A DNA stretch of 36,231 nucleotides from Acidobacteriota bacterium (GTDB lineage: Bacteria; Acidobacteriota; Thermoanaerobaculia; Thermoanaerobaculales; Sulfomarinibacteraceae). Under the pieces are notes generated by a model. That model was not told the origin of the DNA. It ran no database searches and saw nothing but the letters and a program-made list of their open reading frames with translations. The stretch covers positions 1 to 36,231 of the forward strand of contig JAHECW010000037.1 in assembly GCA_024641545.1 (NCBI GenBank). Reading direction: 5' to 3'. Below, piece after piece: positions 5,094 through 36,045 of the stretch. Made by a program: the position numbers and the translations under genes. Position 1 is the stretch's first letter. The number at the start of each line of letters is the position of its first letter.

Positions 5094-5503
5094 AGCATCT
5101 GCACCGAGCACCGCCGGGCCCGGCTCCGCCGGACCGGGCGGCACTCGCTGCAACCGATGTGCGCTGCACATCGGCGTGGAATTGGTCTCGCGTCCGTGCT
5201 GTCACCGCGAAACCCCTCGCATGGGTGCCAGGTCCGCAGTTCCGCATTTTCGACTTCACAACTACGGAACTGCGGAACTGGCACCTATGCTTCGACTCGC
5301 TTCGCTCGCTCAGGGCTTGAGGGGGCACTCTCGGCCACCCGCGATGGGAGCATCAATCTCTGAGGCGCGCAACCGGGTTGCAGGCTGATGATCAGGCCGA
5401 GATATCAGCGCGACCAAGCCGATACCCAACTTCCTAATGCCTGGCACCGCTAGGCACCGCTAGTAAACTTTGTTTCTCCTGGCACCGATGCCGATTGTCG
5501 TTC
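5094..5503. other. Gene-free stretch with hairpins and GGCACC repeats
   Basis: No convincing coding frame is present between the convergent ends of the FAD oxidoreductase and the HAF protein. From left to right it holds a GC-rich inverted repeat near 5112-5142, a perfect 9-bp hairpin (CCGATGTGC, loop GCT, GCACATCGG) at 5154-5174, and the long hairpin at 5224-5285 listed separately. It also holds the purine/pyrimidine phrase CTTCGCTCGCTCAGG near 5300 and a perfect 10-bp tandem duplication GGCACCGCTA at 5443-5462, with further CTGGCACC words at 5441 and 5480. None has the U-tract of a classic terminator. Confidence 0.7.
5224..5285. repeat. Long imperfect palindrome ending in GGTGCCAG
   Basis: The left arm 5224-5246 (GGTGCCAGGTCCGCAG, then TTCCGCA) pairs with 5263-5285. 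About 21 of 23 positions match, around a 16-base loop. Inside each arm TCCGCAGTTCCG repeats. The outermost bases GGTGCCAG recur at the ends of the larger palindrome at 8433-8564. This resembles REP-type palindromes moved by REP-associated tyrosine transposases, but no such gene is in the window. Confidence 0.85.
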
Positions 5504-6574
5504 TCAGGGCACCGAGCTCGACCAGCGGTTCGTGTCGCCGGTCTCGAAGCCGTCGGCGAAGAGCGCGCCGCCGTCGAGCGGCGTCATCAGGATGGCGCCG
5601 ATGGGTCCCGAGAGCCCCTGACGCGCGGCCGCGACGATCTGCCGGGCGTTGTTGATGCCGTTCGCGCCACCGGGCTGGACGTACCACTCCCCCTGCGACG
5701 GGTCGACGAGAGCGCCCAGGGCGTAGTAGCCCTCGTCCACGAAGTGCACCCCGGAGGTCGTCGAGTAGTAGTAGAGGAGAGCGTCGCCGCGGTCGTTGAT
5801 CGCGGTGGCGCTGGTCGTCGTCGCGCACCCGCCCAGGTACTCCCAGCCGGCGGCCTGTCGGTAACGCATGGGGAAGGTGCTGCACCCGGAGTAACCCAGG
5901 ATGTAGCCGCCGAATTCGTTGGCGCTGTTGAGGGCGGCGCCGATGAACCCCTGCCAGTTCCCCGGCGGCAGGGCAACCTCGGTGACCTGGCCCGTGTCCA
6001 GGTCCAGCAGCCGCGACCCCGTCAGCACAACCCGCTCGTCGTTGACGTCCACGCCCATCATCCCCTCAGGGAGGGGGGTCGGACCGCCCGCGGCGAACAG
6101 CACGCCGGTGGACAGGTTCCACCCCCAGAAGCCCGAGCCGCCGACGATGTCGCCCAGGTCGTTGACCGCGTAGGCGGCGCTGTAGGGGTCGCCGGGCAGA
6201 CCGCCCAGCACCTCGACCTCGTAGCCGCCCGCCGCTGGTCTCCAGACTGCGGCTATCGGCTGGGTGGTGACGTATCCGGTGGGGCAGACCGAGCCGACGA
6301 TCACGCCGGCGTCGTTGATGTCGTGCGCCCGCGAGCTCTGCATCCCCGGCGGCAGGGGCAGGAGCTCGAACGGTTGACCCCCGTGCGAGACGGCGGCGAG
6401 CAGGTCCGCCACGGGGGTTCCGACGGCGACCGAGCCGCACACGACGCCGTGCTCGTTCAGGCCAGTCGCGTTGAAGTCGGTTCCCAGGTACTGCACTGCG
6501 TAACCGGGAACATCCGCGTGAACGGGCAGCACGACGCATGCCGCCGCGACGATCGCCAGTGTGAATGACCTCAT
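5504..6574 (-). CDS. Secreted HAF-repeat protein with C-terminal DGFE.GD tag
   Basis: This 356-residue secreted protein has a signal peptide (MRSFTLAIVAAACVVLPVHA). The body has about seven short repeats of the form xxINDxGxIVG: ATGLNEHGVVCGS, AHDINDAGVIVGS, AYAVNDLGDIVGG, ATAINDRGDALLY and NGINNARQIVA. This is the pattern of the HAF extracellular-repeat family, whose function is unknown. It ends LFADGFETGDTNRWSSSVP directly before the stop, a tail that also occurs in frame +1 at the end of the upstream kelch gene. AAGGAG stands nine bases upstream of the ATG at 6574. It starts 60 bases after the intended stop of the kelch gene, so the two are probably co-transcribed. Secretion and repeat family are clear; role unknown. 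Confidence 0.88.
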   Translation of the reverse strand: MRSFTLAIVAAACVVLPVHADVPGYAVQYLGTDFNATGLNEHGVVCGSVAVGTPVADLLAAVSHGGQPFELLPLPPGMQSSRAHDINDAGVIVGSVCPTGYVTTQPIAAVWRPAAGGYEVEVLGGLPGDPYSAAYAVNDLGDIVGGSGFWGWNLSTGVLFAAGGPTPLPEGMMGVDVNDERVVLTGSRLLDLDTGQVTEVALPPGNWQGFIGAALNSANEFGGYILGYSGCSTFPMRYRQAAGWEYLGGCATTTSATAINDRGDALLYYYSTTSGVHFVDEGYYALGALVDPSQGEWYVQPGGANGINNARQIVAAARQGLSGPIGAILMTPLDGGALFADGFETGDTNRWSSSVP

Positions 6575-6587
6575 GGTTGGCTCCTTG

Positions 6588-8300
6588 TCACATTCCTTGC
6601 CGAGGCTGTTGAGAATACGTGGCACCGTGCGGCCTCAGGGAACGAACAGCGACCAGGCCGAGGCGTCGCCGCTCTCGAAGCCGTCGGAGAAGATCCCGTT
6701 CGCCCGCGCCGCGCAGTAGCGGCTGCCCTGCTGGGTCTCGATGATGCCCCCCCAGATGATCATCTCGGAGCCGGTCCAGACCGTGGACCAGCGCCCAGCG
6801 GGCGCGTACGTGCGGCGCGTCGATCAGCGTCGTCGGACGCCAGGAGTCGGTCGCCGGGTCGTAGCGACCGCCGCTGGAGTCGTTCGCGCCGCCCCAGATG
6901 ATCATCTCGGTGCCGGTCCAGACGGCCGTGTGAGAGCAGCGAGCGTCGGGAGCGCCGGCGGCGGCAACCGGCGACCACGAGTCGGTGGCGGGGCTGTAGC
7001 GCGCACCGTCCCCGTAGAGCTGCCCGATGTGGACGTTGTACCCGTCCCAGATGATCATCTGGGAACCGGTCCACACGGCCGAGTGATAGGCCCGTGGCGC
7101 GAGCGGTGCGGTCGCCATGGGCGTCCAAGTGTCGCTGGCCGAATTGTAGCGGCCGCCGCTGTTGAGGAGACCCGCTGCGCCCTCGCCTCCCCAAACCAGC
7201 ATCTCGGTGCCGGTCCACCCCACGCTGGCATTCACGCGACCGGCGGGAGCACCGGCGGCGGAGGTGGGCTCCCAGGTGTCGGTGACGGGGTCGTAGCGGC
7301 CGCCGCCGGTGTCGGCCCGGCCGCCCCAGACCACCATCTTGGTGCCGGTCCACACCGCAGTGTGCCAGTAACGAGGGTCGAGGAGCTGCAGGGTCGGGGT
7401 CCAGGTGTCGTCGATGCAGTTGGCGCCGGCGACTTTCGGGAGCCGGAACTCGAAGGCTGTGCCTCCTGGCTCCGGCGCCAGGGTCCCGCGTGTCTCGCTC
7501 CACCACTCGTCGAACGATCGCTTCGGCCACTCGATGGTCGAGACCTCCACCTGCTGGTCATCCAGCGCGTGGACGACGATCGCGTAGGAGCGGGTCTCGT
7601 CTTCGCGGAGCGGGCTCACCTGGTCGAGGACGATGTCGCCAGTCGCCCCACCCATCGTCAATCTCAGCTCGCGGACACGAGCGTCGAAGTCGTCCTGCTC
7701 CAGCTCGAGGACGCCTGGAATCCGATGCCCACCAAGGCCTCGCCGCCACTCCACCGTGCTGATCACTCGGGTGGTCCGCTCCCGGGCAGGCGCCGAGCCG
7801 ATCTCGCCGATTTCACGCTCTGCGCGGGCTCGAGTGTCTTCATGTAAGAGCCGGTCGTGTGCATAGTAGGTCCTGAGGAGGCGGTCGGCGAGCAGGGGAC
7901 GCGCGAGGCCCTCGGCGGCCTTCAACGGATCATTGCCGAGGGCAGCGAACAGCTCGCGCAGCCGCGCCGGCGACTTCGAGTGGGCCGCCATCCGATCGAG
8001 CTCTGCCTGCAGCTGCTCCGGCGTGATCTCCACCCGCCAGAACCTCCGCAGCGCCGACGTCTTCAGCACGGCGTCCTCGGCCTTGCGCGCCAAGACGGTC
8101 TCCGGCACGGCCTGCTCGAACGAGCTGTCACCACCTCCCGAGCGATGGCTCCAGTAGACCTGCTCGATGGCCTTCTGGGAGCGGATCCTCTCGGACGGAG
8201 TCAGGGCGGCGGACGTCGCGGCGGGCGCGGCGGCCGCGGCGCCGATGAGGAGCGTGCTGATGAGCACCGCAGCGCGATGCATCGTGATCCGTCGGTTCAT
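6588..8300 (-). CDS. Secreted kelch-repeat protein with frameshifted C-terminus
   Basis: The start ATG at 8300 follows a strong AGGGGGAG. A signal peptide (about residues 1-30) leads into a helical region (about 35-260). Text such as ITPEQLQAELDRMAAHSKSP recalls SurA/parvulin-type chaperone N-termini; that resemblance is an inference. From about residue 305 there are kelch-like blade repeats built on HTAVWTGTEMIIWGG and GGRYDPATDSW, probably a beta-propeller. After codon 501 (around 6791-6800) the kelch pattern stops in this frame and reads unrelated Arg/Leu-rich sequence to 6588. In the +1 frame the text resumes as WSTVWTGSEMIIWGG and ends at a TGA at 6635-6637 with the same tail as the HAF protein. 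One extra base (or two lost) explains this, by mutation or sequencing error. The role is unknown. Confidence 0.82.
   Translation of the reverse strand: MNRRITMHRAAVLISTLLIGAAAAAPAATSAALTPSERIRSQKAIEQVYWSHRSGGGDSSFEQAVPETVLARKAEDAVLKTSALRRFWRVEITPEQLQAELDRMAAHSKSPARLRELFAALGNDPLKAAEGLARPLLADRLLRTYYAHDRLLHEDTRARAEREIGEIGSAPARERTTRVISTVEWRRGLGGHRIPGVLELEQDDFDARVRELRLTMGGATGDIVLDQVSPLREDETRSYAIVVHALDDQQVEVSTIEWPKRSFDEWWSETRGTLAPEPGGTAFEFRLPKVAGANCIDDTWTPTLQLLDPRYWHTAVWTGTKMVVWGGRADTGGGRYDPVTDTWEPTSAAGAPAGRVNASVGWTGTEMLVWGGEGAAGLLNSGGRYNSASDTWTPMATAPLAPRAYHSAVWTGSQMIIWDGYNVHIGQLYGDGARYSPATDSWSPVAAAGAPDARCSHTAVWTGTEMIIWGGANDSSGGRYDPATDSWRPTTLIDAPHVRARWALVHGLDRLRDDHLGGHHRDPAGQPLLRGAGERDLLRRLRERRRLGLVAVRSLRPHGATYSQQPRQGM
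6635..6790 (-). other. Out-of-frame C-terminus of the kelch protein
   Basis: Read from 6790 downward in the frame one base off the main frame, this gives WSTVWTGSEMIIWGG, about 20 further residues, then IFSDGFESGDASAWSLFVP and a stop. It continues the kelch repeat and closely matches the C-terminus of the neighbouring HAF protein. It is therefore the original end of the kelch gene rather than a separate ORF; it has no start codon or ribosome-binding site of its own. Confidence 0.88.
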
Positions 8301-8688
8301 GCTCTCCCCCTTGCGCGACGACAACAGCGGTCACTAGTAAGTGATTCCACTTCTCAATTCGAGACAGTCCAGGTTGGCCACCGACAAGAGCGGCGCGCGA
8401 ACCGGAGCTGTCCGCCGCAGGCAGTTTCGATCGGGTGCCAGGACCAACGAAACCGTGAATTCGATGCGCCGGCGGCGGGTTCGAAACGGCGTCGCGAACA
8501 GGACAGCACGTCAGGTCCCGCTTCGAGCGGCGGCGCAATCACGATTTCGTTGGGCCTGGCACCCAAAGCGTTGAAAGCGTTGGGCCTGGCACCCAAAGTA
8601 TTGAAGTCCCGCGAGCCCGAAAAACCCTGTCAGAGGGAGAAGGAGAGGATCTACTCCCGCAGGGGTATCCTGTTGCCGGGAGGCACCC
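8301..8688. other. Intergenic region between kelch and UPF0045 genes
   Basis: These 388 bases separate two divergent genes. The centre is taken up by the large palindrome at 8433-8594. The left part should hold the kelch promoter and the right part the UPF0045 promoter, but no clear -35/-10 pair was identified. No coding frame with a plausible start or family pattern is visible. Confidence 0.6.
8433..8594. repeat. Large palindrome with GGGTGCCAGG ends and a duplicated right end
   Basis: The left arm 8433-8474 begins GGGTGCCAGGACCAACGAAA and continues CCGTGA, then TGCGCCG. The right arm, about 8527-8564, is its inverted complement with a few mismatches and a short indel, leaving a loop of about 50 bases. 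The right terminal segment GTTGGGCCTGGCACCCAAAG occurs a second time 30 bases on (8549 and 8579). The terminal GGTGCCAGG matches the smaller hairpin at 5224-5285, while the inner arm sequence is different. Confidence 0.85.
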
Positions 8689-23177: not shown

Positions 23178-23792
23178 ATGAAATCAGCACCGACCACTGC
23201 CCGGCGCGAAAAACGACCGCTCATCCTCCGTGCCGCCACCGAGGTCTTCGCGGAGCAGGGCTTCAATTCGGTGACGGTGGCGGCCATCGCCGACCGCGCC
23301 GGAATCGGCAAGGGCACGGTCTACGAGTACTTCTCGTCCAAGGACGAGCTGCTCTTCGCCGTCTTCGAGTGGATGAACGAGGGGATCTTCGAGCGGATTC
23401 ACATCCTGCTCGAGGATGGAGGAACCACCCACGACCGGCTCCTGATGCTGCTCGATCTCGGTGCCCGAATCACCCGTGAACAACGGGACATGCAGGCAGT
23501 GGTGCTCGACTTCTGGTCGGCGTCCCGCGGCACCAAGGTGGAGGAACGCTACAACAAGGCGTGTCTCACGACCTTCCGCGCCTATCGTCGGCTCGTCGCC
23601 GATGTCATCCGTGAGGGTCAGACCGCGGGTGCCATTCGATCCACCGTCGATGCCGAGGCGGTGGCGGCCATGGTGGTCGCCGCCATGGACGGGCTCGGGG
23701 TCCAGATCTTCTTCGATCGTGAGCTCGATCCCGACGCCACCGTCGCCGGTTTCGGCGAGGTCCTCCTCGCCGGTCTCGAGGTGCACCCATGA
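23178..23792 (+). CDS. TetR family repressor of the efflux operon
   Basis: This 204-residue regulator has the TetR DNA-binding domain at about residues 12-62: ILRAATEVFAEQGFNSVTVA, then IADRAGIGKGTVYEYFSSKD with the recognition helix in GKGTVYEYF. The C-terminal two thirds is helical and variable, as expected for a ligand-binding and dimerisation domain. AGGA stands seven bases before the ATG at 23178. It is the first gene of an operon with a TolC-type channel, an adaptor and an RND pump, and an operator palindrome lies in front of it. It most likely senses a pump substrate and derepresses the operon. The stop overlaps an ATG as ATGA, but the next gene probably starts further down. Confidence 0.95.
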   Translation: MKSAPTTARREKRPLILRAATEVFAEQGFNSVTVAAIADRAGIGKGTVYEYFSSKDELLFAVFEWMNEGIFERIHILLEDGGTTHDRLLMLLDLGARITREQRDMQAVVLDFWSASRGTKVEERYNKACLTTFRAYRRLVADVIREGQTAGAIRSTVDAEAVAAMVVAAMDGLGVQIFFDRELDPDATVAGFGEVLLAGLEVHP

Positions 23793-23851
23793 CCATCGTC
23801 AAGAACCTACCCGCGCCGGACTCCGTAGGAGTCGCAGACAGGAGGGCGCAG

Positions 23852-25192
23852 ATGAACCGTTTTCCCGCACGGACATTGTCCGTCACCTTGATCCTCGTCC
23901 TGGCGGCCGGCGCGGCCGCCGCACAGGAGACAACCGGGCCGAAGACCACCCTCAAAGAGCTCGTGATCTCGGCGCTCGACACCCACGAACGGGTCGAGGT
24001 CGCCGACAGCGAGATCCGGCGGGCCCAGGCCGACAAGAAGCTCGCCCGGTCCGCCATCATGCCGCGGTTCGACGTCAACGGCGCCTACACCTTCTACGGC
24101 AAAGAGGTCGCCATCGAGCTGTCGCCCGGCGAGAGCTTTGTCATTCAACCCTCGCAGGACTGGTCGTGGAGCGCGGATCTGCGCCAGACGCTGTTCTACG
24201 GTCTCCGCCCCTGGCGTGCCAAGAACATCGCCAAGCTCAACTACGACATCGCACAGCTCGACCGACAAACCGTCATCAACAATCTCACCCTCGAGGTCGC
24301 CGCCGCCTTTCTCTCCACCCGCGCCGCCGAGGACGGGGTCGAGGTCCGCAGGGTCGCCCTCGAGGAGATCGAGAAACAGCTCCATGTCGCCGAGCGGCGG
24401 TACGAGGTGGGCGAGGCGACGATCGCCGATGTCGCCCGCTGGCGGGCCGAGGTCGCCGGCGCCAAACAGGCCTATGTCGTCGCCCTCGGCGATGCCACGT
24501 TCGCACGCAAGAGTCTCGGCCGGTTGACCGGCGCGGAAGAAATCGGCACTCTCGAGCAGCTCGGCCCGGTGCCGATCCCGGCGGGCGACTCAGAGACCTT
24601 GATCGCAACGGCGTACGAGGATCGCCTGGAGATGAAAACCCTGGCCAACCAGCTCGAGGCCGCGGGGCTCTGGGTCAAGCTCGAAAAGGGCGCCTGGTTG
24701 CCCGAGCTCGATGCTTCGGCGCAGTACTTCCAGCAGAAAGCGGCCTTCCCGTCTCAGGGCTGGGCTTCGCTCGTGTTCAGGCTCAAGGTGCCGATCTACG
24801 ACGGCGGCGTCACCGCCGCCAACGTCGCCAAGGCCAAAGAGGACGTCCGGCAGGTCGAGCTCCTCGACCAGACGCTGCGCCGGACCATCGCCGATCAGGT
24901 GGACTCGGCCTCGATCGGCTATCAGGCGGCCGACGCCGCCCTCGACGCCGCCCGCGAACGATCCAACGCGGCCAGGGAGGCCTACCGCCAGGTGGAACGC
25001 GCTTTCCGGGTCGGGGAGGCCTCATCGGTGGACCTGCTCGACGCCACAACCGAAGCCACCGACGCCGAAACGACCCACATCATTGCGCGGGCGCAGCGCG
25101 AGTTTCAGGCGATCTCGCTGCGCCACGCCATCGGCCGGTTTCCCCTGCCGGATCTCGACTACGCCGACTTCGACGCAAGAACCGAGGAGTGA
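23852..25192 (+). CDS. TolC family outer-membrane efflux channel
   Basis: This 446-residue protein has a signal peptide (MNRFPARTLSVTLILVLAAG, cleaved near AAAAQE). Two outer-membrane efflux protein (OEP) repeats of long helices and a beta-barrel portion follow. Typical text includes SEIRRAQADKKLARSAIMPR, VAERRYEVGEATIADVARWR and, in the second repeat, VERAFRVGEASSVDLLDATT. It forms the trimeric exit duct for the adaptor and RND pump encoded downstream. The ATG at 23852 follows CAGGAGG and directly precedes the signal peptide. An in-frame ATG at 23789, overlapping the TetR stop, would add 21 polar residues and spoil the signal. Its stop is five bases from the adaptor start, indicating tight coupling. 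Confidence 0.94.
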   Translation: MNRFPARTLSVTLILVLAAGAAAAQETTGPKTTLKELVISALDTHERVEVADSEIRRAQADKKLARSAIMPRFDVNGAYTFYGKEVAIELSPGESFVIQPSQDWSWSADLRQTLFYGLRPWRAKNIAKLNYDIAQLDRQTVINNLTLEVAAAFLSTRAAEDGVEVRRVALEEIEKQLHVAERRYEVGEATIADVARWRAEVAGAKQAYVVALGDATFARKSLGRLTGAEEIGTLEQLGPVPIPAGDSETLIATAYEDRLEMKTLANQLEAAGLWVKLEKGAWLPELDASAQYFQQKAAFPSQGWASLVFRLKVPIYDGGVTAANVAKAKEDVRQVELLDQTLRRTIADQVDSASIGYQAADAALDAARERSNAAREAYRQVERAFRVGEASSVDLLDATTEATDAETTHIIARAQREFQAISLRHAIGRFPLPDLDYADFDARTEE

Positions 25193-25197
25193 CAACC

Positions 25198-26307
25198 ATG
25201 AAACCCGAACGACTCCGTCTCGTCTCCGCCTTCACCATCGTCGCCCTCGCCCTCGTACTCGGCGCCTGCCACAACTCGGATGACGACGGCTCCGCCGAAG
25301 GCATCGAAAACGCCGCCGAGGCCCTCGATCGTGCGCTGGCGCCGCGCGAGGTCGAGCTCATCACTCCCGAGATCCGGAGCGAAAACCCCTCCGTCCAACT
25401 GGTCGGCGACATCCGGGCCTTCGACACCGTGACCATCTCATCGGAGATCGGCGGCAGGGTCGACCGCGTTCTCGTCGAAGTCGGCGATCAGGTCGCCAAG
25501 GACGCTGCGCTCGTCGAGATTGACCGCGAGACCTTCGCCATCTACCTCGCCCAGGCGGCGGCCAACGTGCAGGCCGCCCAGGCCGATCTCGCGCTCGCCG
25601 AGAAAGACCTCGAACGCAAGCGAGACCTGCGCTCGGATGAGACCATCCCGCAGGCGACCCTCGACCAGGCCCAAGCGGGCTTCGATCTTGCCAAGGCCCG
25701 GCTCGCGGCCGCCGAGGCGTCCCTCAGCCTCGCCCAACGCAACTACGATCGAAGCGTCATTCGCGCGCCCGCCGCCGGCGCGATTACCGAGCGCATGGCC
25801 GCCGCAGGTCAATTCGCCGATGTCGGCGCCGGTCTGCTCGAGCTCGCCCTCGGCGGCAAGGTCAAGGTTGCCGCACGGGTGCCGGAGAGCTGGGTCGGGC
25901 GCTTTGTCGGGCTCGAGACCTTCGACTTCACCGTCGGCGCCGGATCGACGGTTCACACCGCGAAGATCTACAGCCTGCAACCCGTGGTCCGCGAGGCCAG
26001 CCGGTCGTTCGAGATCGTCGGAACCGCACCCGCCGACAGCACCATGCGGCCCGGCATGTTCGCCACTGTGACCCTGACCTCGCCCGAGTCCAAGAGCACC
26101 CTGTGGCTGCCGGCCTCCGCCGTGGCGACGTCGGATCTCCCTCAGGTGCTCATGGTCGAGAACGACACGATCGTCTACCGAAAAATCCAGATCGGCCGCC
26201 GCGACAACGGCACCATCGAGATCGTCGACGGCCTCGATGAAGGCGAACAGGTCATCCTCGACGTGAGCGGACTGACCCGAGGCCTGCCGGTCAAGATCGT
26301 GGGCTGA
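25198..26307 (+). CDS. RND efflux adaptor (membrane fusion) lipoprotein
   Basis: This 369-residue periplasmic adaptor of the RND/HlyD type has a lipoprotein signal peptide with lipobox LGAC (Cys24), so it is anchored by lipid in the inner membrane. Domains in order are a lipoyl half (about 65-100: SSEIGGRVDRVLVEVGDQVA), a coiled-coil hairpin (about 105-180: AQAAANVQAAQADLALAEKD, then AAEASLSLAQRNYDRS), the second lipoyl half (VIRAPAAGAITERMAAAGQF), a beta-barrel domain and a membrane-proximal domain ending VSGLTRGLPVKIVG. It links the RND pump to the TolC-type channel. GAGGAG precedes the ATG. The gap after it holds an AT-rich repeat before the pump gene. Confidence 0.95.
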   Translation: MKPERLRLVSAFTIVALALVLGACHNSDDDGSAEGIENAAEALDRALAPREVELITPEIRSENPSVQLVGDIRAFDTVTISSEIGGRVDRVLVEVGDQVAKDAALVEIDRETFAIYLAQAAANVQAAQADLALAEKDLERKRDLRSDETIPQATLDQAQAGFDLAKARLAAAEASLSLAQRNYDRSVIRAPAAGAITERMAAAGQFADVGAGLLELALGGKVKVAARVPESWVGRFVGLETFDFTVGAGSTVHTAKIYSLQPVVREASRSFEIVGTAPADSTMRPGMFATVTLTSPESKSTLWLPASAVATSDLPQVLMVENDTIVYRKIQIGRRDNGTIEIVDGLDEGEQVILDVSGLTRGLPVKIVG

Positions 26308-26320
26308 GGAAGCAGGTATG

Positions 26321-26430
26321 CAATTCTCAATTCTCAATTCTCAATTCTTAATTGCGGCCACAACAGCTCGCATCGCCACCCGGCACGGCTGCGATGTCAT
26401 TAAGAATTCAAAATTCAAAATTAAGAATTC
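26321..26430. repeat. AT-arm/GC-core inverted repeat, copy B, inside the efflux operon
   Basis: The left arm (26321-26354) is CAATTCT repeated four times, then TAATTG. The GC-rich core (26355-26397) holds CATCGC and GCGATG. The right arm (26398-26430) repeats ATTCAAAA and ends TTAAGAATTC, which is the approximate inverse of the left. TGCGATGTCA at the core border is shared with copy A at 8987-9101 read in reverse. It fills the space between the adaptor stop and the pump start. Confidence 0.88.
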
Positions 26431-26448
26431 TCCGCGATTGGATTCACG

Positions 26449-29400
26449 ATGAATCTCTACGATGTAGCAATTCGCCGCCCCGTCTTCACCGCGATGATGA
26501 TGATCGCCCTGGTTGTCTTCGGCATCCTCGGCTATCAGACCCTGCCCATCAACCTGCTGCCGTCCCTCGACATCCCCATCGTGTCGGTGATCACGCTCCT
26601 TCCGGGCGCGTCGCCCGAGGTCATGGAGTCCGACGTCACCGATGTCCTCGAGTCCGCGGTCAACACCATCGAGGGCATCAAGCAGATCACGTCGTACTCC
26701 GGCCAGGGGGTGTCGCAGGTGACGGTCACCTTCACCCTCGAACGCGACATCGACATCGCCGCCCAGGACGTGCGCGACAAGGTATCGGGCGCCCTCGGTC
26801 GGCTGCCGTTGGATGCCGAGCCGCCCATCGTCCAGAAGTTCGATGTCAACTCGCAACCGATGCTGTGGATGGCGCTCGCCGGTCTCGACGCCCGCGAGCT
26901 TTCGGACTACGCCGATCAGGTCGTCAAACCGCAGCTCCAGGCGGTCCCGGGTGTCGGCAACATCCTCGTCCCGGGTTTCCGCGAACCCATGATGCGGATC
27001 TGGATCGACCGCGACAAGCTCGCCGCGCACCGGCTGACGGTCAACGATGTGATCATGGCCCTCGGACGCGAGAACCTCGAGCTTCCCGGCGGTTTCATCG
27101 AAGGCCCCTTGACCGAGCTCGCTGTCCGTAACCTCGGGCTCTTCGAAACCGTCGACGATTTCGACGCCATGATCGTCGCCACCGTCGACGGCCGCCCGAT
27201 CCGGCTTTCCGACGTCGGTTTCACCCAGCTCGGCGTCGCCGATGAACGCGGCGGCGCCCGCTACAACATGACCCCGACCCTCGGGATCGGGGTCGCCCCC
27301 CGCTCCGGCGCCAATCTGGTCGATGTCAACCGCGCCGCCCGACAGCGGATGGACGAGCTCTCCAAGGACTTTCCGCCCGGACTCTTCTACGACGTGGCCT
27401 TCGACGGCGCCGAGTACGTCGAGAAGTCCATCGAGAACGTCCAGGTCGACATCGTCTACGGCGCCATCCTTGCGATCCTGGTGGTCTTTGTCTTCCTCAG
27501 ATCCTGGCGCTCGACCTTCATCGTCTCGCTCGCCATCCCGACCTCGCTCATCGCCACCTTCGGTTTCATGCGGATCTTCGGTTTTTCGCTCAACAACCTC
27601 ACCACCCTGGCGCTCGCCCTCTCGGTCGGCGTCGTGATCGACGACGCCATCGTCGTGCTCGAGAACATCTACCGCCACCAGGAGAACGGCGAGAGCCGCA
27701 TCACCGCCGCCTTCAGCGGGACCCGGGAGATCGCATTGGCGGCCATGGCCGCCACCTTCGCCATCGCGGCGGTCTTCATCCCGGTGGCCTACATGAAGGG
27801 GATGATCGGCCAGTTTCTCTTCGAGTTCGGAATCTCGGTGGCGGCCGCCATCCTGATCTCGCTCTTTGTCGCCCTGACCCTGACCCCCATGCTGTGCTCG
27901 CGGATCCTCAGCGTGAAGCCCAAGCACGGCCGGCTCTATGACGCCCTCGAGAACGCCTTCAAGGGTCTCGAGCGCGGCTATTCGGCGCTCCTCGATGTGG
28001 TCCTGCGGCACAAGATCATCACGCTGGCGACCGCGACTCTCGTCCTCGCCGCGAGCTTTCTCCTGGTCCCGTATATCGGCGCCGAGTTCGCCCCGGCCGA
28101 AGACATGTCGTCGTTCATGCTCACTACCAAGGCGCCGGTCGGCACCTCGCTCGAGAACATGGACCGGATGATGCAGGAGGTCGAGCGCGTCGTGCTCGGC
28201 CAACCCGAGGTGCGGGCCGGATTCATGGCCATCGACATGGAGGAGCGCGGTCAGGTCAACACCGGGATCATGTTCATGCGGATGTACAAGCCCGACCAAC
28301 GCGAAACCACCCAGCAGGAAGTGGTCCAGCGGCTCCGTCGCGAGCTCGCCAAGATCGAAGGCCTCCAGGCCTTCGTCATCGAGTTCAGCTTCTACAACGT
28401 CTCCGGCGAGGGCGGCGAGAAGGCCCTCGCCTATTCCATCCGCGGTCCCAAGCTCACCGAGCTCCAGCGCATCGGCGACCGGGTCATCGAAAGGCTCTCC
28501 ACGGAGCCCGGCTTCGTCGACCTCGACCACAACCTGCAGCTCGAGCAGCCGCAGCTCTTTGTCAAGGTCAACCGCGAACGGGCGCACGATCTCGGGCTCG
28601 ACGCGGCCGCGGTCTTCGAAACCGTGTACGCCCTCGTTGCCGGGCGTGAGGTGGGCTCCTACACCACCGAGGGGAAACGTTACGACGTCCGGATCAAGGT
28701 CCGGCCGAGCCAGGCGCTGCAACCCGAGGACATCGGCGCCCTCCAGATCCGAACGCCGTCGGGCGACATGGTGCGGCTCGACTCGGTGGTCGAAATCAGC
28801 CACGGCGTCGGCCCCATCAACATCAACCGCACCGACCGCGAACGCAGCGTCCTGCTCACCGCCAACCTCGAAGGGCTGCCGCTCAACAAGGCGCTGGAAA
28901 AAGTCGATGCGGTGCTCGCCGAAGAGCTCCCCGACGGCTACCACGCCAAGGCCACAGGCCAGGCCGAGGAGTTCGCCGAGTCGATGAACTCCTTGCTCTT
29001 CGCCCTCGGTCTCGCGGTGCTCATCGTCTACATGCTGCTGGCGAGCCAGTTCGACTCGCTCATCCACCCGTTCACCATCATGTTTGCGCTGCCGCCGGCC
29101 CTGGTCGGCGCACTCGTCGCGCTCTTCATCACCGGCTACACCATCAACATCATGTCGGTCATCGGCATCATCCTGCTCTTCGGACTGGTGACCAAGAACT
29201 CGATCCTGCTCGTCGATCTGACGATCCAAAAGCAGGAAGCGGGGCTCGACCGCGAGGCCGCCCTGCGCGAGGCCTGCCCGATCCGGCTCCGACCCATTCT
29301 CATGACCGCGGTGTCGATGATCTTCGGCGTCCTGCCGGTGGCTCTCGCCCTCGGTGAGGGTGGTGAGGCGCGCGCTCCCATGGCCGTGGCCACCGCCGGC

Positions 29401-29559
29401 GGAATGACCACCTCGACCCTGCTGACCCTCTTCATCGTGCCGGTGGTCTACGCCTACATGGACCAGCTCGCCACCAAGCTGCGCGGCCACGAGTCGCGCT
29501 CGCGACAGGCGATCGACGGCGAGGAGGCGCTCGAGCTCGCCGACGAGCTGACCGAGTAG
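26449..29559 (+). CDS. RND multidrug-type efflux permease (HAE1/AcrB family)
   Basis: This 1036-residue inner-membrane pump is the usual length for AcrB/MdtC-type RND proteins that expel hydrophobic compounds with proton import. It starts MNLYDVAIRRPVFTAMMMIA, the conserved N-terminal helix. Proton-relay residues are visible: Asp398 and Asp399 in GVVIDDAIVVLENIYRHQE (helix 4) and Lys916 in GLVTKNSILLVDL (helix 10). The porter region has VTVTFTLERDIDIAAQDVRD, as in the family. GEGGEARAPMAVATAGG near the end is also typical. It is the last pump component of the TetR-led operon. No strong ribosome-binding site is seen before the ATG, where the AT-rich repeat ends 18 bases upstream. The substrate is unknown. 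Confidence 0.96.
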   Translation: MNLYDVAIRRPVFTAMMMIALVVFGILGYQTLPINLLPSLDIPIVSVITLLPGASPEVMESDVTDVLESAVNTIEGIKQITSYSGQGVSQVTVTFTLERDIDIAAQDVRDKVSGALGRLPLDAEPPIVQKFDVNSQPMLWMALAGLDARELSDYADQVVKPQLQAVPGVGNILVPGFREPMMRIWIDRDKLAAHRLTVNDVIMALGRENLELPGGFIEGPLTELAVRNLGLFETVDDFDAMIVATVDGRPIRLSDVGFTQLGVADERGGARYNMTPTLGIGVAPRSGANLVDVNRAARQRMDELSKDFPPGLFYDVAFDGAEYVEKSIENVQVDIVYGAILAILVVFVFLRSWRSTFIVSLAIPTSLIATFGFMRIFGFSLNNLTTLALALSVGVVIDDAIVVLENIYRHQENGESRITAAFSGTREIALAAMAATFAIAAVFIPVAYMKGMIGQFLFEFGISVAAAILISLFVALTLTPMLCSRILSVKPKHGRLYDALENAFKGLERGYSALLDVVLRHKIITLATATLVLAASFLLVPYIGAEFAPAEDMSSFMLTTKAPVGTSLENMDRMMQEVERVVLGQPEVRAGFMAIDMEERGQVNTGIMFMRMYKPDQRETTQQEVVQRLRRELAKIEGLQAFVIEFSFYNVSGEGGEKALAYSIRGPKLTELQRIGDRVIERLSTEPGFVDLDHNLQLEQPQLFVKVNRERAHDLGLDAAAVFETVYALVAGREVGSYTTEGKRYDVRIKVRPSQALQPEDIGALQIRTPSGDMVRLDSVVEISHGVGPININRTDRERSVLLTANLEGLPLNKALEKVDAVLAEELPDGYHAKATGQAEEFAESMNSLLFALGLAVLIVYMLLASQFDSLIHPFTIMFALPPALVGALVALFITGYTINIMSVIGIILLFGLVTKNSILLVDLTIQKQEAGLDREAALREACPIRLRPILMTAVSMIFGVLPVALALGEGGEARAPMAVATAGGMTTSTLLTLFIVPVVYAYMDQLATKLRGHESRSRQAIDGEEALELADELTE

Positions 29560-31613: not shown

Positions 31614-32348
31614 TCAGGCCACTGCGCGCCGGTCGGTAACGACGAGCCCATCGCGGATCTCGACGATGCGACCCGCCCTCTTGGCGAGGGTCTGGTCATG
31701 GGTGACGACAACGAGCGTCCTGCCCTGCCCCCAGAGCTCCGACAAGAGGCTCATGACATCGGACCCCGAGCCGGTGTCGAGGTTGCCGGTGGGCTCGTCG
31801 GCGAGGACGATGTCGGGCTCCATGGCGAGCGCCCGCGCGATGGCCACCCGCTGCATCTGTCCGCCCGAGAGCTCGGTGGGCCGGTGCTCGACCCGATCGC
31901 CGAGGCGGACCCGTTCGAGGTGCTCCACGGCCCGGCGCCGCCGTTCCCGGCGGCCGACGCCGCCGAAGAGCATGGGCAGCTCCACGTTCTCCAATGCCGT
32001 CAGCTGAGGGAGGAGATTGAAGTTCTGGAAGACGAAACCGACCCGGCGGTTGCGGACATCGGCGAGGGCGTCGCGATCGAGCCCGGCGACGGCCTCACCG
32101 CCGATCATGTAGCTCCCGCCGGTGGGCGTGTCGAGACAGCCGATGAGGTTGAGCAGGGTCGATTTTCCCGAACCCGACGGACCGACCACGGCGACGAACT
32201 CGCCCTTGTCGACCACGAGCTCGATCCCCTTGAGGGCCTCGACCTTGATCTTGCCGGTGTTGTAGACCTTGGTGATCCCGAGCATCTCGATGATGTGCCC
32301 GTTGGAGGTCCCGTCGCCGTTCGTCTTCTTCTTCAATGGCCAGTTCAT
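31614..32348 (-). CDS. MacB/LolD-type ABC transporter ATPase
   Basis: This 244-residue stand-alone ATPase has Walker A GPSGSGKST at residues 56-64, the signature LSGGQ at 160-164, Walker B IVLADEPTGNLD at 180-191 and the switch His in VVVTHD. The GNLD ending and the size are typical of the MacB/LolD/FtsE branch, which powers mechanotransmission-type ABC systems rather than classic import. It is the last gene of a four-gene operon, after two FtsX/MacB-type permeases and an adaptor, and must energise them. The ATG at 32348 follows GGAAGC, which is the last unit of a hexamer tandem repeat (32353-32394), so the repeat supplies the ribosome-binding site. It has a longer N-terminal leader (about 18 polar residues) than usual. 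Confidence 0.95.
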   Translation of the reverse strand: MNWPLKKKTNGDGTSNGHIIEMLGITKVYNTGKIKVEALKGIELVVDKGEFVAVVGPSGSGKSTLLNLIGCLDTPTGGSYMIGGEAVAGLDRDALADVRNRRVGFVFQNFNLLPQLTALENVELPMLFGGVGRRERRRRAVEHLERVRLGDRVEHRPTELSGGQMQRVAIARALAMEPDIVLADEPTGNLDTGSGSDVMSLLSELWGQGRTLVVVTHDQTLAKRAGRIVEIRDGLVVTDRRAVA

Positions 32349-32352
32349 GTCT

Positions 32353-32394
32353 GCTTCCGTTTCCGCGTCCGCGCCCGCGTCCGTGCCCGCGTCC
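32353..32394 (-). repeat. Hexamer GGNNNC tandem array that forms the ATPase ribosome-binding site
   Basis: On the minus strand seven units follow each other: GGACGC, GGGCAC, GGACGC, GGGCGC, GGACGC, GGAAAC and GGAAGC. The last ends four bases before the ATPase ATG. The units drift toward purine-rich, ribosome-binding-like sequence at the start codon. Confidence 0.85.
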
Positions 32395-32402
32395 GAGGTC
32401 GC

Positions 32403-33659
32403 CTACTCATAGCGCAAGGTCTCCGCCGGGTCGACGCTCGCCGCGCGCCGCGCCGGGAAATAGCCCGCGATGATCCCGATGAATCCCAACAGCGCCGCCG
32501 TCGCCACCGCGATTTCGACGCTCAAGGTCGGTTTGCCGAGAAACTCGAGGGCCTGGTTGCCCTCCACCGGGACCAGCCGGACGAGCATGATCAGGATGAC
32601 CGCGATGAGAAGACCGAAGGCGCCGCCGAGCAGGGTGTAGGTCATCCCCTGCAGGACAAAGGGCCCGGTGATCCAGCCCCGGTGAGCCCCGACAGCCATC
32701 TGAACGCCGATCTCGCGGGTCTTCTCCTTGACCACCGCGTACATAATGTTGGCCACCCCGATGCCGCCGACGAGGAGGGTCAGCCCGCCGATGATGCCGA
32801 GGAATGCCTGCAGGCCGATCATGATCTTGGCCATGACCTTGCCGAACTCGACGGTGTCCCACAACCCGGTGACCTGCTCGTCCGTCGGATCAAAACGGTA
32901 CTTGGCGGCGAGCGCCTCGTTGAACTGCTGCCGCGCCAGCGGCATGTCCTCTGCGGTCCTCGCCTTGAAAACGATGTTGTTGAGCCTCTGGGTGCCGAAC
33001 TGCGCGGAAAACGTCGTGATGGGGATCACCGAGCCGTTGGCATCGGGCCCTTTGTAGGTACCCATCTGCATCTTGTGCTCGAGCACCCCGATGACCAGGT
33101 AGGGGATGCGATCAACGAACATCGTCTCCCCGACCGGGTCCGCTTCGCCGAAGGTGTCCTTTGCGAGCTCGTCGCCGAGAAAGATCACCCGCCGCTTTTC
33201 GCGCTCGTCGTTGGCGTTGAAAAATCTGCCGCCGGCCTGCGCAAAGTGGTGGCGCATCTCGCCGTACTCCCAATTGGCGCCGGTCACCCGGCCGGTGATG
33301 GTGGTGGTTCCCCAGCTCAGCGAACTCGACCAGCTGGTCAGCTCGCCAATGACGCCAGAGGCCGCAGTGATGCGCCCGCGGAGATAGCCGATGTCGTCGA
33401 GGATCGGGCGGACCGGCCGACCCTCGGGAAGACCCTCCCACACCTTCGATGTCTCGCCGGGCCACCACACGGCGATGTTCTCCCCCATCCCCCGCTGCCC
33501 CTTCATGAGCTGGTGCCTGAGGCCTTCGCCGAAGGCCAGCAGCATGACGATGGCGACCGTCCCCCAGGCGATGGCCGCAACTGTGAGCATCGCCCGCTTG
33601 CGCTGGAGCGACGACGCCTTGAGGAAGAGCGTCGCAATGACTGCGAGATCACGACCCAT
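32403..33659 (-). CDS. MacB-type ABC permease (second of two)
   Basis: This 418-residue inner-membrane protein has a MacB periplasmic core domain and an FtsX-like C-terminus. The first helix (about 25-48) is in RAMLTVAAIAWGTVAIVMLL. A large periplasmic part (about 50-280) contains GDELAKDTFGEADPVGETMF. Three C-terminal helices (about 285-400) include LTLLVGGIGVANIMYAVVKE and the motif KTREIGVQMAVGA, the usual contact to the ATPase. It ends IIAGYFPARRAASVDPAETL, typical of the family. GAGGAGGA precedes the ATG. It starts 18 bases after the first permease gene; the two are paralogues and probably form a heterodimer. There is no fused ATPase domain, unlike MacB itself. Confidence 0.94.
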   Translation of the reverse strand: MGRDLAVIATLFLKASSLQRKRAMLTVAAIAWGTVAIVMLLAFGEGLRHQLMKGQRGMGENIAVWWPGETSKVWEGLPEGRPVRPILDDIGYLRGRITAASGVIGELTSWSSSLSWGTTTITGRVTGANWEYGEMRHHFAQAGGRFFNANDEREKRRVIFLGDELAKDTFGEADPVGETMFVDRIPYLVIGVLEHKMQMGTYKGPDANGSVIPITTFSAQFGTQRLNNIVFKARTAEDMPLARQQFNEALAAKYRFDPTDEQVTGLWDTVEFGKVMAKIMIGLQAFLGIIGGLTLLVGGIGVANIMYAVVKEKTREIGVQMAVGAHRGWITGPFVLQGMTYTLLGGAFGLLIAVILIMLVRLVPVEGNQALEFLGKPTLSVEIAVATAALLGFIGIIAGYFPARRAASVDPAETLRYE

Positions 33660-33677
33660 GGCTCGTCCTCCTCGAGA

Positions 33678-34907
33678 TCACAGCTTCATCGCCACGACGG
33701 GGTCGAGGCGCGCCGCGTCGCGCGCCGGGAAATAGCCCGCTACGAGGCCCACCAACCCGAGGACCGAGGCGGTCAACAGGGCGAGACCCGGAGACAGGTT
33801 CGGGAGGCCGACGTACTCCTCGAGATTGGTCGGAAAGATGCTGCAGATCGCAAACGAGATGGCGAGCCCGACGCCGCCACCGACCGCGGTCAGGATCATG
33901 GTCTCGAGCATGAACTGGCCGAGGATCGCGCGGCCGCGGGCGCCGAGGGCGATCTTGATGCCGATCTCGCGGGTCCGCTCCTCGACGACCACGTTCATGA
34001 TGTTGGACACGCCGATGCCACCCACCACCAGGGTGAGCACCCCCATGATGCCGAGGAACACCGTGAAGCCGAGCATGAACGCGTCCATGAAGACGAACAT
34101 CTCGGACGTGTCCCACACCTGAATCGCCTGGTCGTCGTCCGGATGAAAGCGCAACCGGCTGCTCAGTGCCACCCTCACCTGCTCGTTCAGCGCCTTGTTG
34201 AGGTCCGGCGTGGGCGCCTTGTAAATGAAGTTGTTGACGTACTTCTGGCCGGTGAGGGCGCGGAAGGTCGACTCCGGGATGATCATCTTGGAGTGGTCGC
34301 GGCCCGAGTAGGACGAGTCCTGTTCCTTCGGCTGGAGCACGCCGACGACGAGAAACGGCGAGCCGTGGATCATCACCGTCTCGCCGACTGCGTCCAGGGT
34401 GCCAAAAAGATCCTCGGCCAACTCGTTGCCCACAAAAACGACGCGACGCCGCTGCCCGACGTCCAACTGATCGATGAAACGACCGCCGACGGCCGGCACC
34501 ATGTTTCGCATGGGGCCGTAGGCCGGAGACACGCCGGACACCTCCACCGATCGCTGGCGATCGCCGAAGCGGGCGATCAGATTCTCGGAGTACTCGCCCG
34601 AGATGCCGGCAATGAGCGGCACCTGAGCCTTGAGGTACTCGATGTCCTCCTCCGTCATCCTCATCCGGCGACCCTTGCCGAGTCCCTCGAAGATCATCGA
34701 CGTGCGCATCGTCCAGGCGATGACAATTCGGTCACCGAGCCCGGCGGTGGTCTTGATCATGTGCCGGTGCAGCCCGTTGCCGAAGGCAAGCAGCAGGCTG
34801 ACCGCCACGGTGCCCCAGATGATGCCGAAGGCGGTCAGGAACGTACGCAGCTTCTGGCTCCACAAGTCGCGGCCGAGCTGCCGGAGAAAAGACCCGAAGC
34901 TGGTCAC
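33678..34907 (-). CDS. MacB-type ABC permease (first of two)
   Basis: This 409-residue paralogue of the next gene has the same layout: an N-terminal helix (RTFLTAFGIIWGTVAVSLLL), a MacB-type periplasmic core with GNELAEDLFGTLDAVGETVM, then three C-terminal helices with LTLVVGGIGVSNIMNVVVEE and TREIGIKIALGARGRAI. It ends LVAGYFPARDAARLDPVVAM. The start is GTG at 34907 with only a weak ribosome-binding site. It lies 37 bases after the adaptor gene and before the second permease and the ATPase. MacB-type systems move substrates from the periplasm across the outer membrane or work in lipid or peptide export; the substrate here is unknown. Confidence 0.94.
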   Translation of the reverse strand: MTSFGSFLRQLGRDLWSQKLRTFLTAFGIIWGTVAVSLLLAFGNGLHRHMIKTTAGLGDRIVIAWTMRTSMIFEGLGKGRRMRMTEEDIEYLKAQVPLIAGISGEYSENLIARFGDRQRSVEVSGVSPAYGPMRNMVPAVGGRFIDQLDVGQRRRVVFVGNELAEDLFGTLDAVGETVMIHGSPFLVVGVLQPKEQDSSYSGRDHSKMIIPESTFRALTGQKYVNNFIYKAPTPDLNKALNEQVRVALSSRLRFHPDDDQAIQVWDTSEMFVFMDAFMLGFTVFLGIMGVLTLVVGGIGVSNIMNVVVEERTREIGIKIALGARGRAILGQFMLETMILTAVGGGVGLAISFAICSIFPTNLEEYVGLPNLSPGLALLTASVLGLVGLVAGYFPARDAARLDPVVAMKL

Positions 34908-34944
34908 ACGACCAACCCACCGCGATTCGCGTCCGCGAGTCGCA

Positions 34945-36045
34945 TCAGCTGATTTCCTTGGGCGGCCTCTGAACCACCTCGTCGCCCTCGGCGAGGCCGG
35001 ACGTGATCTCCACGTTGAGGCCGTCCGAGAGCCCGAGCTCGACCGCGACCTTGCGCGGTTCGGCCTCCGGGCCGGGGTCCGGGATCTCGACGAAGGTCGC
35101 GTCGTTCTCGAACAGCACCAGCCGCTCGGGAATGAGCAGGATGCCGGTTTTCTCGCGAATCACGACGTCGGAGTTGGCCGAGTATCCGGCGCGCAGCAAC
35201 ACCCCCTGGTCGGGATCGAGCTCGATCTCGACGTCGAACAGAGTGGCTCCCTCGCTCTTCTGTGCCTGCGGCGAGATCCGAGACAGCCGTCCGGTCACCG
35301 GCCGGTCGGGCAGTGCGCCGACTTTGATCCGGCACGGCATGCCGACCGTGATCTTGCCGACGTCGATCTCGTCCACCGTGCCCTTGAAGATCAGGTCTGA
35401 CATGTCGGCTACGGACGCCAACTCGGTGCCCGGCTGGTAGGAGGTCAACGGCACCACGGGGTCGCCGACGTTGACGGCGCGGCTGAGCACCGTGCCGCTG
35501 GCGGGGGTGCGGATGATGGCCTCGACTTCGGTATCGCCACCGCTCACCCGACCGCTGCGGGTCAGTTGGCGGTTGTCGGTGGCCTGCTGGCGGGCGATCC
35601 TCGCCAGCTCGTAGGTCTCGCGCAGCGCATCGAGGTCTCCCTTCGACATCAGGCCGTCGTCGAAGAGTTCCTGGCCGCGCTTGAAGTCGCCTTCGGCCTT
35701 GAGGAAGCTGGCTTCCGACGAGCGCACGCCGTGGTCGACGTTGAGCAGTTCCTGCGGTGTCGGGTCCGGCGCGACCTCGAAGAGCGGGTCCCCGGCCCGG
35801 ACGGTGTCGCCGACCTCGACGAAACAGCGGGCGACGATCCCGGAGATCTTCGACTTGACCTGGAAGCGTTCGCGGGGTTCGATCTGACCCACGGCGAGGG
35901 CCTTCTCGGTGATGTCGCCGAGTTCGGCCTCGATCAGGGTGAGGCCGTTTTCCTCACCGCCGCTCTTCCCGACAAAGGCGTAGATGGCGCCGCCCGCGGC
36001 ACCCACAAAGATCAAGACCAGCAGCAACCGCAACAGTTTGCCCAT
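34945..36045 (-). CDS. MacA-like periplasmic adaptor protein
   Basis: This 366-residue HlyD/MacA-type adaptor has one N-terminal membrane helix (MGKLLRLLLVLIFVGAAGGA), uncleaved or a signal anchor. The lipoyl domain text is VKSKISGIVARCFVEVGDTV. A coiled-coil hairpin (about 100-160: VRSSEASFLKAEGDFKRGQE, then LRETYELARIARQQATD) follows. The second lipoyl half (IIRTPASGTVLSRAVNVGDP) comes next, then beta-barrel and membrane-proximal domains (ending GLAEGDEVVQRPPKEIS). It would link the two permeases to an outer-membrane channel; the nearest TolC-type gene in the window is at 23.9 kb. GAGGGAGAG is upstream of the ATG at 36045. It is the first gene of its operon, and the leader contains a 12-bp tandem repeat. 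Confidence 0.93.
   Translation of the reverse strand: MGKLLRLLLVLIFVGAAGGAIYAFVGKSGGEENGLTLIEAELGDITEKALAVGQIEPRERFQVKSKISGIVARCFVEVGDTVRAGDPLFEVAPDPTPQELLNVDHGVRSSEASFLKAEGDFKRGQELFDDGLMSKGDLDALRETYELARIARQQATDNRQLTRSGRVSGGDTEVEAIIRTPASGTVLSRAVNVGDPVVPLTSYQPGTELASVADMSDLIFKGTVDEIDVGKITVGMPCRIKVGALPDRPVTGRLSRISPQAQKSEGATLFDVEIELDPDQGVLLRAGYSANSDVVIREKTGILLIPERLVLFENDATFVEIPDPGPEAEPRKVAVELGLSDGLNVEITSGLAEGDEVVQRPPKEIS

Follow-up and report, generated by a model that had tools for sequence, protein, structure and literature searches.

The tail that ends two neighbouring genes in the stretch of DNA analysed here (36,231 nucleotides, hereafter the window) acts like a C-terminal sorting tag, but it fits into no known family against which it was tested. 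This short tail, LF.DGFESGDTSAWS..VP, closes more than 100 unrelated exported proteins of the same genome. These many carriers, together with an all-or-none spread of the tag among relatives, make a dedicated, hitherto undescribed system for delivery to, or anchoring at, the cell surface very likely. We propose, with a probability of roughly 0.6, that the tail represents a new type of C-terminal sorting signal ("DGFE-CTERM") served by dedicated surface machinery. We are less confident that this machinery reads the tail by means of a peptidase of the C25 (gingipain/PorU) family. The tail is recognised by no Pfam or NCBIfam model, and no description of it was found in the literature searched.

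Two tagged genes in the window

A sequence-only reading of this DNA had noted DGFE tails at the ends of two genes, and both were confirmed, on the minus strand. The features concerned are as follows:

5504..6574, minus strand: open reading frame of a secreted HAF-like protein, 357 codons including the stop, from the ATG at 6574
5507..5563, minus strand: C-terminal tag LFADGFETGDTNRWSSSVP of the HAF-like protein, stop codon at 5504-5506 (profile score 53.2 bits, E 1.4e-13)
6588..8300, minus strand: open reading frame of a secreted kelch-propeller protein, from the ATG at 8300 (Pfam Kelch_KLHDC2, 3e-27)
6638..6694, minus strand: C-terminal tag IFSDGFESGDASAWSLFVP in the frame that follows the break in the kelch gene, stop codon at 6635-6637 (profile score 51.2 bits, E 6e-13)

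Both proteins begin with a signal peptide, MRSFTLAIVAAACVVLPVHA followed by D in the HAF-like protein (by sequence and by scan) and MNRRITMHRAAVLISTLLIGAAAAAPAATSA in the kelch protein. The bodies had been described as HAF repeats and a kelch propeller. The second label is solid, with the Pfam kelch match extending to about residue 499 (about position 6828), while the first is weak, as NCBIfam HAF_rpt scored 8 bits against a cut-off of 22.65. The kelch gene is frame-broken in this assembly: tag IFSDGFESGDASAWSLFVP is out of frame with the kelch open reading frame (6588-8324), which leaves the kelch frame past the break and ends at 6588, and the open frame that carries the tag spans 6638-6823. 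These boundaries place the change of frame roughly at 6788-6828, in agreement with the earlier suggestion that the kelch tail is reached after a frameshift.

Several other features of the window were observed. REP-like palindromes built on GGTGCCAG...CTGGCACC occupy intergenic positions 5219-5290, 8433-8564 and 8548-8605, flanking both tagged genes, and are possibly a genome-wide repeat. At 23178-29559, open reading frames named by eye comprise a TetR regulator with TolC-, HlyD- and AcrB-like efflux genes, and at 31614-36045 a second HlyD is followed by two FtsX-like permeases and an ATPase in a MacAB-like set, also named by eye.

Number, consensus and position of the tag

The genome that contains the window is from an uncultured Acidobacteriota bacterium (5.38 Mb in 310 contigs, 99% complete). 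A degenerate DNA pattern for DGFExGD gave 57 exact matches in it and none for the reversed control pattern, which excludes chance. A search with a profile built from 35 tails found 129 places at E up to 1; about 110 of these were read, and the stop codon was in the DNA read for 105. The tag was within 15 residues of the stop in 102 of those 105, and in related genomes it was no more than 20 amino acids from the stop in 98 of 105. The motif therefore extends far beyond the two genes of the window.

The consensus is [LIV]-F-x-D-G-F-E-[ST]-G-[DN]-T-[STG]-[AG]-W, after which most tails have four more residues, a proline and the stop codon. Near-invariant residues in the C-terminal tags are the F two before D, then D, G, F, E, G and W. 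Proline is the last residue in 75 of 99 C-terminal tags, and exactly five residues come after the tryptophan in 78, so that W-x4-P-stop is the usual ending. The last few residues vary and are sometimes missing, and in several proteins the tryptophan is thus the true end of the conserved part.

As the sequence-only reading had observed for the first two tails, the tails do not resemble LPXTG or PEP-CTERM signals: in 102 of 105 cases the protein stops 0-15 residues after the tryptophan without a hydrophobic helix or a basic cluster. Only the protein of locus L009 has a hydrophobic stretch further downstream, along with a basic end. The best reading is a new C-terminal sorting signal that has no membrane anchor.

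The tag is not always C-terminal. In one protein (L031, 4263-5159 on contig C170 of the same genome), DGFESGD is at the mature N-terminus, directly after the signal peptide and ahead of a glycosidase-like domain resembling GH114, and in three others (L012, L098 and L120) the tag is internal. These positions are odd for an end signal that is cleaved. Other C-terminal tags reportedly function inside proteins too (PMC11980579).

Tagged proteins and their export

The proteins that carry the tag include M28 and M14 peptidases, a trypsin-like protein, DUF1028 and LVIVD proteins, and NHL and kelch propellers, as well as FG-GAP, beta-helix, LamG and Omp28-like proteins. A signal-peptide-like start was found in 68 of 83 tagged open reading frames (82%), compared to 27 of 135 untagged ones from the same DNA (20%; p ~8e-20), as judged by a home-made rule, not SignalP, that was applied alike to both sets. 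The tag is therefore enriched among proteins with an export signal. The C-terminal position and this enrichment reject the idea that the motif occurs equally in cytoplasmic proteins or inside domains. Overall, the genome-wide occurrence of the tag at the C-termini of exported proteins of unrelated folds supports the sorting part of the earlier proposal of a sorting or processing signal for surface display. We infer the surface location of the tagged proteins, their processing and the partner involved.

In several proteins an NCBIfam choice-of-anchor Q or J domain directly precedes the tag. Choice-of-anchor domains owe their name to the differing sorting tags that come after them. What comes after the Q domain in tag-negative relatives is an IPTL/PEP-CTERM-like membrane tail, another domain or nothing. 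Q proteins with such membrane tails were found at L189, L192 and L193 (tag-negative genomes G278, G230 and G316), which suggests that one type of tag has been swapped for another.

The commonest untagged neighbours of tagged genes were Ser/Thr kinases with TPRs (25 of the 160 loci used, e.g., L147 and L137), and an ECF sigma factor family was also among the commonest. No processing enzyme was found among the recurrent neighbours at these 160 loci.

Distribution of the tag among genomes

Across the phylum (297 genomes), more than a handful of matches were found only in the source genome and three others of its class. Within the class Thermoanaerobaculia (148 genomes), counts of profile matches, for which the highest values mean at least 55 per genome, showed at least 20 tags in 38 genomes, none or one in 92, and intermediate numbers in 18. 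Even the family of the source genome is split, with the tag present in genera g1, g171, g172 and g173 and not in g2, g4, g169 and g170. A similar pattern, many copies in scattered genomes where most have none, was the argument from which PEP-CTERM and its enzyme were recognised (PMC1569441).

Public records with many copies of the tag are labelled Thermoanaerobaculia, Holophagae, Acidobacteriota or unclassified, with one labelled Deltaproteobacteria. The latter, JAHZIX01 ("Deltaproteobacteria" P_S1_bin.14; L087, L090 and L148), has 97 tag matches; its label is probably a naming error for an Acidobacteriota genome. Genomes of other phyla had one to six matches each, and those that were read are the starts of LamG/jelly-roll-like domains or single proteins.

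A PorU-like C25 peptidase as candidate partner

A membrane enzyme co-occurring with the tag had been anticipated. Exosortase was considered and rejected: no PF09721 match was present in five tag-positive genomes (the source genome G000, G351, G361, G362 and G369), exosortase-like matches were present in tag-negative genomes, and weak ones occurred in tag-positive and tag-negative genomes alike.

The best candidate so far is one subtype of C25 peptidase, which was present in all 14 tag-positive genomes first tested. When six candidates per genome were scored throughout the class, the top match to the subtype reached at least 660 bits in 27 of the 38 tag-positive genomes and in 5 of the 92 tag-negative ones (p 2e-14, a value inflated by shared ancestry), or by genus in 16 of 22 and 5 of 41 (p 2e-6, ancestry not corrected for). 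All other matches to the subtype profile in the class scored no more than 183 bits. The association is strong and imperfect. Eleven tag-positive genomes had no strong match among the six candidates scored for each, among them three g194 genomes that carry 34 to 54 tags and are 90-97% complete, and tag-negative G176 and G368 have the C25 gene together with an FN3-like neighbour. Because there are exceptions in both directions, tag without a strong C25 match and C25 without tag, we regard the reading of the tag by a PorU-like C25 enzyme as a strong lead and not as a result.

The C25 protein of the source genome (contig C85) is 932 amino acids long, has a signal peptide, is untagged and matches the C25 domain of Pfam (PF01364, 3.5e-78). 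Its catalytic His and Cys, in motifs GHGG and TC/SC, are invariant in 14 C25 sequences. Among solved chains its best sequence relative is Porphyromonas PorU (E 1.5e-14), which is also the best full-length structural match of the predicted model (Foldseek 6za2, E 1e-30; model pLDDT 76, pTM 0.75). The model aligned with PorU over 641 residues (VIA Z 20.5, rmsd 8.8) and with gingipain R alone over 315 (VIA Z 36.9). The NCBIfam cut-off for PorU itself (NF033707, 420 bits) was not reached, as the C25 proteins of three tag-positive genomes scored 210-216 bits.

The gene has a conserved neighbourhood in which a PMT-like membrane glycosyltransferase, the C25 peptidase and a small FN3-like exported protein follow one another (L247 1-4466, L248-L260). 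The FN3-like protein is lipoprotein-like in some genomes. A different C25 peptidase of the source genome (L265, 1580-4849 on contig C66) ends in a variant tag, LFSDNFETGDCGMWSLAVGEN, which indicates that some C25 proteins are cargo, whereas the C25 protein of the operon is untagged.

Proposed mechanism and alternative explanations

We hypothesize that cargo proteins would be exported by Sec, with removal of the N-terminal signal peptide, after which one dedicated machinery would read the soluble tail in the periplasm or at the outer membrane and would move the cargo to the cell surface or hold it there. With less confidence, the reader and processor may be the untagged PorU-like C25 peptidase encoded with the PMT-like glycosyltransferase and the FN3-like protein. 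It could act as a transpeptidase, cutting at or before the tail and, in the manner of PorU, transferring the cargo to an acceptor on the surface, and such a route would run without the canonical type IX translocon. That all of this forms a new surface-sorting pathway of the Thermoanaerobaculia, with a soluble signal of 14-19 residues on more than 100 proteins per genome, a reader of C25 peptidase and glycosyltransferase, and no T9SS translocon, is a tentative suggestion only.

The main rival is that the tail is never cut and is instead a non-covalent docking tag, comparable in use to dockerin, that would bind a putative outer-membrane or surface-layer receptor as an added beta-strand or a peptide ligand. 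We consider this possible, albeit somewhat improbable. Docking would suit a tail without transmembrane or basic parts, the toleration of the tag at an N-terminus (L031) and inside a few proteins, and the tag-positive genomes that are without the C25 subtype. The motif also looks like the beginning of LamG/jelly-roll-like domains from other phyla, although the search pattern itself selected for this likeness, and in a predicted jelly-roll model with a good core the motif was disordered (pLDDT <50). Docking would not by itself explain why the tag so strongly prefers the extreme C-terminus, nor why the W-x4-P-stop spacing is so common.

It is unlikely that the tail is a structural cap, which folds back to stabilise the protein body and has spread by gene fusion without any role in sorting. 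Hydrophobic and aromatic positions (F, F and W) are indeed among the conserved ones, but propellers, beta-helices, peptidases and repeat proteins, which have no surface in common, all close with this one peptide, and neither the all-or-nothing spread across related genomes nor the enrichment in exported proteins favours a cap.

We find it very unlikely that the tag belongs to a genuine type IX system whose C-terminal domain has been shortened, despite the association with a PorU-like C25 sortase and a tagged protein of the Omp28 family. The SprA/Sov translocon was matched in none of 30 genomes, in a search whose control genomes gave no match either and that thus had no positive control. PorV/PorQ shuttle matches above the 90-bit cut-off were likewise found in none of 30, with the weak, mostly N-terminal matches occurring equally in tag-positive and tag-negative genomes. 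No TIGR04183-type NCBIfam domain was found in the HAF-like protein of the window or in nine further tagged proteins, and in a published survey T9SS was found only in Bacteroidetes (PMC4793230).

The codons of the tag indicate that the peptide, and not the DNA, is conserved. Pairwise codon identity was 0.64 and 0.62 at the two Asp positions (0.62 expected from genome usage), 0.33 and 0.50 at the Gly positions (0.36 expected) and 0.66 at the Glu position (0.65 expected), so synonymous codons are used as in the genome at large. Only the Phe codon of DGFE was uniform, being TTC in 53 of 53 exact C-terminal tags where usage in the same genes predicts ~14% TTT. A DNA-level artefact, in which a repeat or local gene conversion copies the 3' ends of genes, is rejected: the two tags of the window are 74% identical over 65 nt, but 42 of 53 core 21-mers are distinct, the matches are scattered over tens of contigs, and the tags keep the reading frame and sit at the stop codon.

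Comparison with known sorting systems

Confirmation of the partner would make a new pathway possible, and there is now a concrete candidate. By means of the tag, what is probably a large share of the surface or secreted proteins in this widespread and mostly uncultured lineage can be named and detected; until now the tagged proteins could be annotated only as hypothetical or by their bodies.

The resemblance to LamG/jelly-roll domains concerns DGFESGD...W at the N-terminal edge of complete domains (in Acanthopleuribacter, Armatimonadetes, Actinomycetota and Haloarcula loci), whereas the tag is the strip alone, at the protein end, with no domain after it. As the tail has neither a membrane helix nor a basic end, it is not a PEP-, GlyGly- or MYXO-CTERM or an LPXTG signal. 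LPXTG/sortase substrates have an LPXTG-like motif, a helix and a basic tail, which DGFE tails do not. GlyGly-CTERM with rhombosortase and MYXO-CTERM with myxosortase are systems in which one enzyme serves many tagged surface proteins (PMC3237569, PMC11980579). Their tags are tripartite, with a hydrophobic helix and a basic end. A Gly-rich motif precedes these in GlyGly-CTERM, a combination not found in DGFE tails, and MYXO-CTERM has an invariant Cys and a transmembrane helix, while the DGFE tail has no conserved Cys and no helix.

With PEP-CTERM/exosortase (EpsH), the DGFE tag shares the design of a short module at the C-terminus of numerous exported proteins with varied functions, as well as many copies in sporadic genomes against none in the background (PMC1569441). 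It differs in having no PEP motif, transmembrane helix or basic tail, and exosortase-like matches do not track it. The type IX system likewise relies on a C-terminal signal that is soluble and has no membrane helix, borne by proteins that start with a Sec signal peptide, and the candidate partner of the DGFE tag is a relative of its sortase, PorU. The T9SS signal, however, is a beta-sandwich domain (PMC4804311), compared to 14-19 residues for the DGFE tail, which would extend C-terminal sorting signals that have no membrane helix beyond the bacteria known for type IX secretion.
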